A stretch of DNA of 45,959 nucleotides from Calditrichota bacterium. GTDB lineage: Bacteria > Calditrichota > Calditrichia > Calditrichales > J004. The DNA lies in NCBI GenBank assembly GCA_024277115.1, contig JAJRVW010000035.1:1-45959 (forward strand), in the 5' to 3' direction. Numbering within the stretch: position 1 is the stretch's first letter; each line of letters opens with the position of its first letter. The notes under the pieces were generated by a model. It did not search any database and was not told where the DNA came from. It saw nothing but the letters and a program-made list of their open reading frames with translations. A program made the translations under genes and the position numbers. This document shows positions 7,525-30,331 of this stretch, piece after piece.

Positions 7525-9297
7525 ATGACTATGGGAAATATACTAATTCTTAGCCTTTCAATAACTTTACAGTGCATTGCCGTTGCTATTCCTTTGTCAT
7601 TGATCAAAGTTACGGGCAAACGACTTGCATGGATTACTATCGCGATAGCAATCACATTAATGCTAATTAGGCGTTCTATATCATTTGTTACGCTATTCTA
7701 TGACGACACCCCACACGAAACTGAAATTTATACAGAATTGGTTGCACTACTAATTTCGGCTTTAATGGTAATTGGACTTGCTGGTATAAGACCTTTATTT
7801 CTTTCTATTCAAAAATCACACAAAGAACTATTAAAGCGTGATATAAGACTACACAAAGCACAGAAAATAGCCCAAATGGGGTTTTGGGAATGGGATATTC
7901 TTAAAAATGAATTGTACTGGTCCGATGAATTATTTCTTCTTTTTGGTTTCGCCCCAAATAGCTTTAAACCAACTTACCAGCATTTTATGAATATAGTCCA
8001 TCCCGAGGACAAGGTTTTTGTACAACAAAAACTAATACCTGCAATCGATATTGATACGCACTACAACTTCGATTTTAGGGTGATTTTAACGAATGGAGAA
8101 GAATATTTTTTTCATGCCCAGGGCGATATTGATCATTCCGAATCCCAAAAGCCAATTCGCATGTTAGGAACAATTACAAATATTACAGCGCGCAAAAATA
8201 CCGAGGCACAGTTGAAGGCCAATGAAAATATGTTCCGGTCATTACTGAAATCGGCCCCCAATGGAATTGTTATTGTTGATGAAAAGGGAAAGATCATCCT
8301 CGTGAATACTAATATTGAAAACTTGTTTGGTTATAAACACGAGAGTTTGATTGGAAAGCCTGTAGAACTATTAATACCGCAACGACTTAGAAAAGGACAT
8401 GTAAACAAGCGTAAGGAATTTCACAAAAAAAATGAAGCACGATTAATGGGCGAGGGAACTGAGTTGTATGCTGCAAATTGTAAGGGAGAAGAATTTCCAG
8501 TAGAAATAAGTCTCAGTCCTGTTTTAATAAAAAACAAAATAATGACAATAAGTATTATACGTGATTTATCAATCCAGAAAAAGATGCAAAAAGAAAAAGA
8601 TAAATTGCAACAGCAACTTTTCCACTCACAAAAATTGGAAACAATTGGAACCCTCGCCGGTGGCATCGCCCATGACTTCAACAATATAATTACACCAATA
8701 TTAGGATATTCAGAAATGATTTTAGAGGAGGCCGAGGAAAACACACTTATCTCCAAAGATATTAAACATGTTTTAAAAGCAGCTAACCGCGCTAAAGACC
8801 TAGTACAACAAATATTAATCTTCAGCCGTCAAGATGAACCTGAGAAAGCGCCTCTCGGTATCAGTGATATTATAAAAGAAGCTATCGACTTACTTATTGC
8901 TATGTTGCCCAAATCAATTGAAATACAAGTCCAAATTAATACCAAAACAGATACTGTTTTAGCCAATTCAACACAGATACAACAAGTTATTATGAATTTA
9001 TGTATCAATGCCTCTCATGCTATGAAAAAAAATGGTGGCCTGCTATATCTGAATCTTGATCAAGTCTTATTAGATCGGGAATTTTTATTGCAACATCCGA
9101 AGTTGAATAAAAAGTACTATATCTGTTTAACAGTAAATGATTCGGGAACAGGAATGGATTCACAGACACTTGAACATATTTTCGATCCTTTTTTTACAAC
9201 AAAGTCTGTCGGAAGGGGAACAGGGCTAGGTCTCTCGGTAGTAAAAGGGATTGTTGCAAACCATGAAGGTGAAATTACAGTGCGCAGTACGATCTGA
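7525..9297 (+). CDS. PAS sensor histidine kinase, C-terminus cut by an in-frame TGA
   Basis: A 590-residue membrane histidine kinase. Three hydrophobic segments lie in the first 95 residues. Then come a PAS domain (about 115-230, GFWEWDI), a second PAS domain (about 236-350), a HisKA domain with the phospho-acceptor in GGIAHDFNN (His383), and a HATPase domain. The N box (MNLCINASHAM), G1 (NDSGTGMD), F (FDPFFTTK) and G2 (GRGTGLGLS) boxes are all intact. I chose ATG 7525; TTG 7522 and ATG 7531 are also possible. The TGA at 9295-9297 stands where Gly is expected, because the same frame continues as KGTTFKIYLPLI, the normal end of this domain. The truncation removes only the last strand, so activity is uncertain. 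The signal is unknown. Confidence 0.85.
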   Translation: MTMGNILILSLSITLQCIAVAIPLSLIKVTGKRLAWITIAIAITLMLIRRSISFVTLFYDDTPHETEIYTELVALLISALMVIGLAGIRPLFLSIQKSHKELLKRDIRLHKAQKIAQMGFWEWDILKNELYWSDELFLLFGFAPNSFKPTYQHFMNIVHPEDKVFVQQKLIPAIDIDTHYNFDFRVILTNGEEYFFHAQGDIDHSESQKPIRMLGTITNITARKNTEAQLKANENMFRSLLKSAPNGIVIVDEKGKIILVNTNIENLFGYKHESLIGKPVELLIPQRLRKGHVNKRKEFHKKNEARLMGEGTELYAANCKGEEFPVEISLSPVLIKNKIMTISIIRDLSIQKKMQKEKDKLQQQLFHSQKLETIGTLAGGIAHDFNNIITPILGYSEMILEEAEENTLISKDIKHVLKAANRAKDLVQQILIFSRQDEPEKAPLGISDIIKEAIDLLIAMLPKSIEIQVQINTKTDTVLANSTQIQQVIMNLCINASHAMKKNGGLLYLNLDQVLLDREFLLQHPKLNKKYYICLTVNDSGTGMDSQTLEHIFDPFFTTKSVGRGTGLGLSVVKGIVANHEGEITVRSTI

Positions 9298-9360
9298 AAA
9301 GGAACGACGTTTAAAATTTACCTACCTCTAATATAAGAAATCCCCTTTAGTAAAACGAGG
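9298..9360 (+). pseudogene. Stranded linker of a split hybrid histidine kinase
   Basis: These 21 codons lie in the same frame as both the kinase before and the receiver after. They read KGTTFKIYLPLI, a TAA stop (9334-9336), then EIPFSKTR. The first part is the conserved last beta strand of HATPase domains, and the second resembles the linker to a receiver in hybrid kinases. With the TGA at 9295 there are two nonsense codons, so an ancestral fused protein seems to have been divided by point mutation rather than rearrangement. Confidence 0.7.
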
Positions 9361-9759
9361 GTGGAGCATAAATTGCAAGGTAATGACGAGCACATTTTAA
9401 TTATAGACGACGACAGTGAAACTGCATTTATGATGGGTACGCTTTTAAAAAAGATTGGCTATAAAACAACTATCAAAACCAATAGCCAGGATCTTTTAGA
9501 TGTTTTTAAAAATAGTCCGAATGACTTTGACCTTGTCTTATGCGACCAATCAATGCCCTCAATAACAGGGCTTGCCCTATCAGAGAAGCTACTTGAAATA
9601 AGATCTGATATTCCTATTGTTTTAATGAGCGGCTATTTTAGTGAGGAACAAGTCAAAAATGCAAAAAATCTGGGCATAAAAAATTTACTAAAAAAACCAA
9701 TAATTTTAACCGATCTCGCATTGGCCTTATCACAGGCTTTTTTGAATAAAAAGGAGTAA
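9361..9759 (+). CDS. Response regulator receiver protein (former hybrid-kinase receiver)
   Basis: A 132-residue protein made of one receiver domain, without output domain. The acidic pair (IIDDDSE, about 15-20), phospho-acceptor Asp62 (LVLCDQSMP), the hydroxyl residue (LMSGY) and the conserved lysine (LLKKP) are present, so phosphorylation should still be possible. The start is unsure: GTG 9361 has GAGG just upstream, and TTG 9373 has GGAG at a better distance. It is in frame with the preceding kinase and only two stop codons separate them, so it is most likely the receiver of a former hybrid kinase. The receiver that follows may act downstream. Confidence 0.8.
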   Translation: MEHKLQGNDEHILIIDDDSETAFMMGTLLKKIGYKTTIKTNSQDLLDVFKNSPNDFDLVLCDQSMPSITGLALSEKLLEIRSDIPIVLMSGYFSEEQVKNAKNLGIKNLLKKPIILTDLALALSQAFLNKKE

Positions 9760-9765
9760 ATATTT

Positions 9766-10134
9766 ATGCCATGTGTTCTAGTTGTTGATGATGATGATGA
9801 TGTCCGAATAATGTTAAAAACAATGCTTGAACGAAATAACTATGATGTAATTATTGCACAAAACGGAAATGAGGCAACAAGGCTATTAAAAAACAATCCT
9901 GTCGACCTGATTATTACAGATCTTGTTATGCCCGAAAAGGAAGGTATCGAAACGATTATTGAAGTAAAGCATGATTTTCCACATATAAAAATAATAGCTA
10001 TTTCGGGTGGAAAACGTATAGGGTTGAGTACCCAATTGAAAAGCGCGAATCTTCTCGGCGCTGATCGTACATTAAAAAAACCTTTTAAGAGTAAGGAATT
10101 GCTAAACACCGTTCGGGAATTAATAAATATTTAA
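9766..10134 (+). CDS. CheY-like single-domain response regulator
   Basis: A 122-residue receiver domain. The acidic pocket (VVDDDDDVR), Asp52 (IITDLVMP), the hydroxyl residue (IAISGG) and the lysine (LKKPF) are all present. There is no DNA-binding or enzyme domain, so it must act by binding or phosphotransfer. It follows the first receiver by 6 bases, with AAGGAG before the ATG. Five GAT codons in a row code for its acidic run. It is probably co-transcribed with the kinase and may be its physiological phosphate acceptor. Confidence 0.9.
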   Translation: MPCVLVVDDDDDVRIMLKTMLERNNYDVIIAQNGNEATRLLKNNPVDLIITDLVMPEKEGIETIIEVKHDFPHIKIIAISGGKRIGLSTQLKSANLLGADRTLKKPFKSKELLNTVRELINI

Positions 10135-29071: not shown

Positions 29072-30331
29072 TTACCTCACCAATAGCATCTTTTTCGTTT
29101 GTTCTAACTTTTTACCTGTTATCAGTTTATAGTAATAGATACCGCTTGCCAGGTTGCCTGCGTCAAAAACCACGTTATATTTTCCGGCCTGTTGCGATTT
29201 GTTTACGAGTGTTTTCACTTCCCTGCCAAGCATATCAAAAACAACGAGGTTTACTTTTCCTGAAGTTTGCAATTCATAACTTATTACTGTGCTTGGATTA
29301 AAGGGGTTGGGATAATTTTGCTTAAGTTTAAAAGATTGTAAAACCGTGTTTGGTTCCGGTGCCCCAATAGACGAAATAACCGGCGCTTTAACGACAACCG
29401 TTCTATATCCGTTGCCAACATTTGTGACAAGAATGCTATCTGTCTGCGCGTCAACCTTTATCAAGCCGGAAGAGGAAGCCAACAAGATATATTTCTGATC
29501 AACTGTTTCAGCGATACCGCGAATGCCGCCCTGATCAAAATTTATCTCATATAAAACTGTATCGGCAAGCGCATCAATAACAGACAACCTTCTTGATTCA
29601 TTTACACCAAAAATTCTACTGCCGTCAATGCTGCATTCCAAATGATAACCACTGGCTGTTAACGCTGTATCAATCACCATACTATCGGCATTGATAACCA
29701 CAACACCCCTTATCGCCCCATCCCGTCCTTCGGCATATATTTTTGAACCATCCTTATTAAGGGTGATTCCATGGCCATCGTTTGAAACATTTGTTGTAGC
29801 AACAATTTTTAAACTATCTGTGCTAATCTTTACCACATCGCTATTATCATTTAAATAAAGCCACTTTCCGTCCGGGCTGACGATCATATCTTCCGCTTCG
29901 TCTAAGTCCAACGCAACGGCGGCAACCACACTGTCTGTTTCTGTATCAATTACAAACAAGTTGTCTGATGATTCATCGCTTACATAAACCCGCTTTCCAT
30001 CCGGACTAATGGCAATACCCTCCAACTCACTCGTATTAATCCCATTTTGAGACGGGTCAAATGCTTTTATCAGAGAATCGGTTTCCGTATCGATTATATG
30101 TACTTCACGATTATGGTCCGTGGCATAAAGTTTTTTTCCATCGGGTGTTAAAACCATACGATAGGCATTGGCCCCGGTAATGGTTTTGATCACCACCATA
30201 CTGTCAATATCGATTACATCAATCCGCCTATCTGAGCCAGCGTAGGCCTTGGACGTTTGCGCAAATGACGATGATGCGAGTAGAAAAAGAGAAAATAAAA
30301 CACAGCATAAGTAAGTTAATTTAATTGACAT
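29072..30331 (-). CDS. YVTN-like beta-propeller protein with type IX secretion sorting domain
   Basis: A 419-residue exported protein. A signal peptide (LFSLFLLASSSFAQ) is followed by about seven propeller blades (about 30-310), many with the YVTN-type pattern SPDGKRVYVSDESSDNLFVIDTETDSVVAAV. The C-terminus (about 335-419) is a type A sorting domain with NYPNPFNPST, VFDMLGREVKTLV, AGKYNVVFDA, LASGIYYYKL and TKKMLLVR. Such domains send proteins across the outer membrane through the Por/type IX system and are then often attached at the surface. A binding or structural surface role is likely; no catalytic motif is seen. AGGAG precedes the ATG. It is the clearest taxonomic marker of the window. 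Confidence 0.9.
   Translation of the reverse strand: MSIKLTYLCCVLFSLFLLASSSFAQTSKAYAGSDRRIDVIDIDSMVVIKTITGANAYRMVLTPDGKKLYATDHNREVHIIDTETDSLIKAFDPSQNGINTSELEGIAISPDGKRVYVSDESSDNLFVIDTETDSVVAAVALDLDEAEDMIVSPDGKWLYLNDNSDVVKISTDSLKIVATTNVSNDGHGITLNKDGSKIYAEGRDGAIRGVVVINADSMVIDTALTASGYHLECSIDGSRIFGVNESRRLSVIDALADTVLYEINFDQGGIRGIAETVDQKYILLASSSGLIKVDAQTDSILVTNVGNGYRTVVVKAPVISSIGAPEPNTVLQSFKLKQNYPNPFNPSTVISYELQTSGKVNLVVFDMLGREVKTLVNKSQQAGKYNVVFDAGNLASGIYYYKLITGKKLEQTKKMLLVR

Follow-up and report, generated by a model that had tools for sequence, protein, structure and literature searches.

When a histidine kinase and a receiver share one reading frame but are kept apart by two in-frame stop codons, are they two proteins that have come to be made separately, a gene in decay, a gene translated through its stops, or an intact gene in a flawed draft sequence? 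This question is raised by a locus in the window analyzed here, a stretch of 45,959 nucleotides (contig JAJRVW010000035.1, positions 1 to 45,959) from the draft genome of a Calditrichota bacterium (GCA_024277115.1, referred to below as G000). The genome-wide context offers a way to judge a split of this kind, and for it we used three control genomes: G001 of the same genus, G006 of the same order, and G036 of the same class. In our view, the split most likely reflects either a defect of the draft or a mutation that arose very recently, rather than a new signaling system.

Reading frame and domains of the locus

From position 7525, a single frame runs through the kinase to the TGA at 9295-9297, then through 12 codons (KGTTFKIYLPLI) to the TAA at 9334-9336, after which it reads EIPFSKTRVEHKLQGNDEHILIIDDD and continues through the receiver to the final TAA at 9757-9759. 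Translation confirmed the initial annotation in that the kinase and receiver frames are identical and that TGA 9295 and TAA 9334 interrupt them. The open frame after the second stop begins at 9337, its earliest candidate starts being GTG 9361 and TTG 9373. The features of the locus are as follows.

7525..9297, + strand: kinase part with a membrane-associated N-terminus, PAS_3, PAS, HisKA, and HATPase_c, closed by TGA
8671-8673, + strand: codon of the phospho-acceptor His of HisKA, in the motif GGIAHDFNN
9295..9297, + strand: in-frame TGA, query position 591 in the homologue alignment
9298..9333, + strand: KGTTFKIYLPLI, the last ATPase strand, untranslated as the sequence stands and still fitting the family consensus
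9334..9336, + strand: in-frame TAA just past the ATPase domain, query position 604
9337..9393, + strand: linker leading into the receiver, as long as in fused kinases, with a GNE-x-IL-type motif also found ahead of fused receivers
9373..9375, + strand: TTG, a candidate internal start codon preceded by a strong Shine-Dalgarno sequence (GGAG, duplex -7.1 kcal/mol)
9361..9759, + strand: receiver part, REC1 (Response_reg), with its phospho-acceptor Asp codon at 9544-9546 and an intact acidic cluster
9766..10134, + strand: REC2, a separate gene for a single-domain receiver, likewise in this frame and preceded by a strong Shine-Dalgarno sequence of its own

The kinase part matched the Pfam families PAS_3 (8.4e-20), PAS (8.8e-15), HisKA (6.1e-9), and HATPase_c (1.8e-16), and the receiver part matched Response_reg (2e-19). 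Among the hallmarks of a hybrid kinase, the HisKA domain with its phospho-acceptor His and a receiver with an acidic pocket and phospho-acceptor Asp are present. As the draft sequence stands, the HATPase_c domain is incomplete, being matched to profile position 96 of 111, and the receiver is not in the same polypeptide, with the TGA and the TAA intervening. When read through the TGA, the HATPase_c match reaches profile position 109, up to position 9330, with one TGA inside. The motifs, Pfam domains, and acceptor residues bear out the earlier claim that the catalytic motifs of both parts are intact, and the HATPase_c profile and the homologue alignment agree with its companion, that the TGA costs the kinase only the last ATPase strand.

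A PAS-HisKA-HATPase_c core with a C-terminal receiver is common to this locus and to CckA-type and other PAS-containing hybrid kinases. The locus has the H, N, G1, F, and G2 motifs, and the CckA kinase core (PDB 5idj) was the best solved-structure match to the kinase part (E 3.3e-34). Unlike in CckA-type hybrids, the receiver is set apart by two stops in this draft. Identity as a CckA equivalog was rejected, since the locus scored 214 and 155 bits, far below the NCBIfam cut-off of 1000.

Homologues and the ancestral gene

Relatives at 140 loci were translated and aligned to the read-through protein, which gave 127 non-redundant homologues besides the window. Approximately 113 of the 127 continue into a receiver over a linker of similar length, and the last ATPase strand is kept by every homologue. 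The TGA position is occupied mostly by Gly (104), Asn (11), or Asp (7), and by a stop in 0/127, whereas the TAA position in the fused relatives is commonly Glu, Asp, Ser, or Gln. Eleven stand-alone kinases end naturally at query positions 601-607, spanning the TAA site (604). Measured between fixed points, the linker is 81 nt both here and in a paralogue on contig C240 of this genome, and 84 nt in G036. Because KGTTFKIYLPLI fits the last-strand consensus and the linker has the length seen in fused homologues, the pattern at the locus is more than chance.

In G036, contig C266 carries an intact orthologue of the hybrid kinase as one open frame of 1031 aa, without a stop, that shares with the window locus the membrane N-terminus and a directly adjoining REC2 gene, whose start abuts the kinase end; in the orthologue only, extra PAS-like sequence follows the N-terminus ahead of the kinase core. 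The two loci are 50% identical in the N-terminus, 43% in PAS1, 31% in PAS2, 54% in the kinase core, 47.5% in REC1, and 53% in REC2, and the last two values give no clear sign of long relaxed constraint on REC1. Judging from the aligned sequences, the ancestral gene was a fused hybrid kinase. The homologues and the orthologue in G036 thus agree with the initial annotation, which had proposed a PAS-PAS-kinase-receiver fusion broken by two point changes and had expected Gly at the TGA; homologues ending naturally at the TGA site, which it had named as possible counterevidence, numbered 0/127 in the read-through comparison.

In G036, a REC2-like gene lies directly after the intact hybrid kinase, and in G001 and on contig C240 of this genome such genes neighbor hybrid kinases; a hybrid kinase with a single-domain receiver was a recurring pair in these three places. 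At the syntenic place in G001, between the gene for a 200-aa protein and a cupin gene, the kinase-REC1-REC2 unit is absent, and the neighbors are conserved there (acsA, 93%; the 200-aa protein, 73.5%; the cupin, 64%; a lysylphosphatidylglycerol-synthase-like protein, 79%). The unit is either a gain in this genome or a loss in G001. A search for plasmid relatives found none.

Stray stops across the draft genome

We conducted a domain search that reads through stops and, after inspection, discarded the flags caused by natural gene ends, genes with a broken frame, or partial matches. Stops in mid-domain were found in this genome in 5 of the 126 receivers over the cut-off (on contigs C70, C7, C67, C248, and C173) and in 2 of the 38 ABC ATPases (C61, at the Walker B Glu, and C28), compared with 0/148 receivers and 0/42 ABC ATPases in G001, 0/36 ABC ATPases in G006, and 1/106 receivers in G036. 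For both families together, interrupted domains numbered 7/164 here versus 1/332 in the controls (Fisher p ~0.002), and the receivers alone gave p = 0.017. Internal stops are thus elevated across unrelated conserved genes, as expected of assembly error. The ABC ATPase genes with in-frame stops are L200 (G000:C61:27628-28074), L201 (G000:C28:576-1010), and L202 (G000:C255:26881-27275), the last of which additionally has a frame break.

Orthologues were compared between ~0.98 Mb of this genome (about a fifth) and ~1.49 Mb of G001. Over 233 kb of coding DNA that was orthologous or similar, 15 stops were flagged here, at least one of them before a start (L168:10071) and one in a poorly conserved gene (L222), versus 5 in 235 kb of G001 in the reverse comparison, each of which precedes a start or falls where conservation is weak. 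This corresponds to approximately one stray stop per 13-16 kb here and to no clear case in G001. The comparison includes a few pieces chosen because they already showed a stop; without them, the count of stops in conserved contexts drops from 12 to 11. Frameshifts showed no clear excess (4 here versus 2 in the G001 comparison).

The interrupted genes, whose names were assigned by motif recognition, include dnaG, pyrB, lpxD (near its end), ppk, and a chemotaxis receptor gene. In the open frame for DnaG primase (L173:15325, contig C32), a TAA stands 47 codons in, at the conserved Glu of CPFHxEKTPSF in the zinc-binding region, and in that for PyrB (L174:18574, also C32), a TAA stands at the conserved Ser of GRTVHS. 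The other 30 listed genes of the window have no such internal stop. A codon-usage scan for interrupted genes was too weak in this AT-rich genome, its candidates being mostly operon junctions. Since stray stops occur in genes that are conserved or essential, split or decaying genes in this draft are not to be taken at face value.

The 12 stops in conserved contexts replace Glu (7), Ser (2), Gln (1), Lys (1), and Ile (1), the Ile-replacing stop being one located before a start. Of the single-step changes that can give a stop, only 18% start from Glu, which is enriched among these stops (p ~0.001-0.002). Glu and Ser, as well as the Gly expected at TGA 9295, can reach these stops through a G:C-to-T:A change. 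If G-to-T errors were random, ~19 radical missense changes (Gly to Val, Cys, or Trp; Asp to Tyr) would be expected, and 7 were seen; a test conditional on how few stops there are put the shortfall at p = 0.056, and we drew no conclusion from it. Missense asymmetry as a sign of genome-wide G-to-T damage showed no excess in this test of low power. Stops of the G:C-to-T:A type have the appearance of consensus base errors, and recent nonsense mutations are also possible.

Weighing the explanations

Both stops are most likely wrong consensus bases within the genome-wide excess of G:C-to-T:A-type stops, the kinase being intact in the cell, an explanation that we hold with moderate confidence. It is favored by the early dnaG stop, with which a cell could be viable only if the stop were an error, a minority variant, or subject to readthrough. 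In low-quality reads, internal stops rise without frameshifts, and counts of such stops have been proposed as a measure of assembly quality (Cooley and Wright 2024, PMC11017572); the spurious internal-stop pseudogenes of that study likewise show a genome-wide stop excess without matching frameshifts, with essential genes included. Against an error, two stops within 39 bases are unlikely if independent, as we estimate fewer than one such pair per genome, and they need local low coverage or chance. The radical missense changes falling below expectation, the 30 other window genes without a stop, and a completeness of 95.6%, which does not suggest a very poor assembly, also count against it. Ranking second to consensus error is the possibility, which we regard as tentative, that the stops are real and recent, so that nonsense mutations are breaking down a dispensable accessory gene, the hybrid kinase, in the lineage or in the strain dominating the assembly. 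The unit is absent from its syntenic place in G001 and thus dispensable in that genus, the segment past the TGA and the receiver are unchanged, as expected after a recent break, and a mixture of strains could explain the stops in other genes too. However, if a load of stops across the genome were real, the early dnaG stop could be part of it only with a second copy of the gene, and the same-genus relative has no comparable load.

An evolved split, with a kinase that the TAA turned into a stand-alone protein and a receiver translated on its own from TTG 9373 as the two proteins of a phosphorelay, appears highly improbable, although the TAA falls exactly where the 11 stand-alone relatives end, the kinase and receiver motifs are intact, and the Shine-Dalgarno duplex of TTG 9373 lies beyond the strongest 5% of random 15-mers. 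The ATPase strand kept in 127/127 homologues would still be lost to the TGA, a natural split at its site occurs in 0/127 relatives, and the stop excess in unrelated genes makes a special event unnecessary. The suggestion of a new two-part phosphorelay is thus unsupported, as no homologue ends at the TGA and equivalent stops stand in many unrelated genes, including those for DnaG and PyrB. Of the two starts proposed for the receiver, TTG 9373 makes independent expression conceivable through its predicted ribosome pairing, and GTG 9361 has no Shine-Dalgarno sequence upstream. We give marginally less credence still to readthrough or recoding, by which the stops here and in other genes would be decoded as amino acids. 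The stops occupy conserved residues in essential genes and outnumber the matching missense changes, as this would have it, but the replaced residues vary (Glu, Ser, Gly, Gln, or Lys) and each kind of stop codon occurs among them, so that no single tRNA explains the pattern, and a suppressor tRNA was not found in the scanned part of the genome (about a fifth). Reassignment of the genetic code was rejected because all three stop codons also terminate ordinary genes. Selenocysteine at the TGA was likewise rejected: neither SelB nor tRNA-Sec was above its cut-off in this 95.6% complete genome, no SECIS-type hairpin was found downstream of the TGA (MFE -1.7 kcal/mol, z +1.1), and the homologues have Gly at this position and Cys in 0/127. 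The readthrough raised at the outset is therefore unsupported in both forms, given selenocysteine machinery below its cut-offs, the mixed residues, and the normal use of all stops. Least probable of all is that the stops are real and tolerated genome-wide in a lineage that partly suppresses all three stop codons, with dnaG and the kinase made full-length; were they real, this genome would exemplify widespread tolerance of stop codons.

With consensus error as the preferred explanation, the locus is probably an ordinary hybrid histidine kinase of a known kind followed by a single-domain receiver gene. The intact kinase would consist of the membrane N-terminus, two PAS domains, HisKA, HATPase_c, and the receiver. 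We infer that its PAS domains would sense a signal, upon which the kinase would autophosphorylate on His and the phosphate would move from His to the kinase's own receiver, and that it may work together with the downstream receiver REC2. Elsewhere in the window, positions 29072-30331 encode a Por_Secre_tail protein (type IX secretion C-terminal sorting domain), which points toward a lineage related to Bacteroidota.
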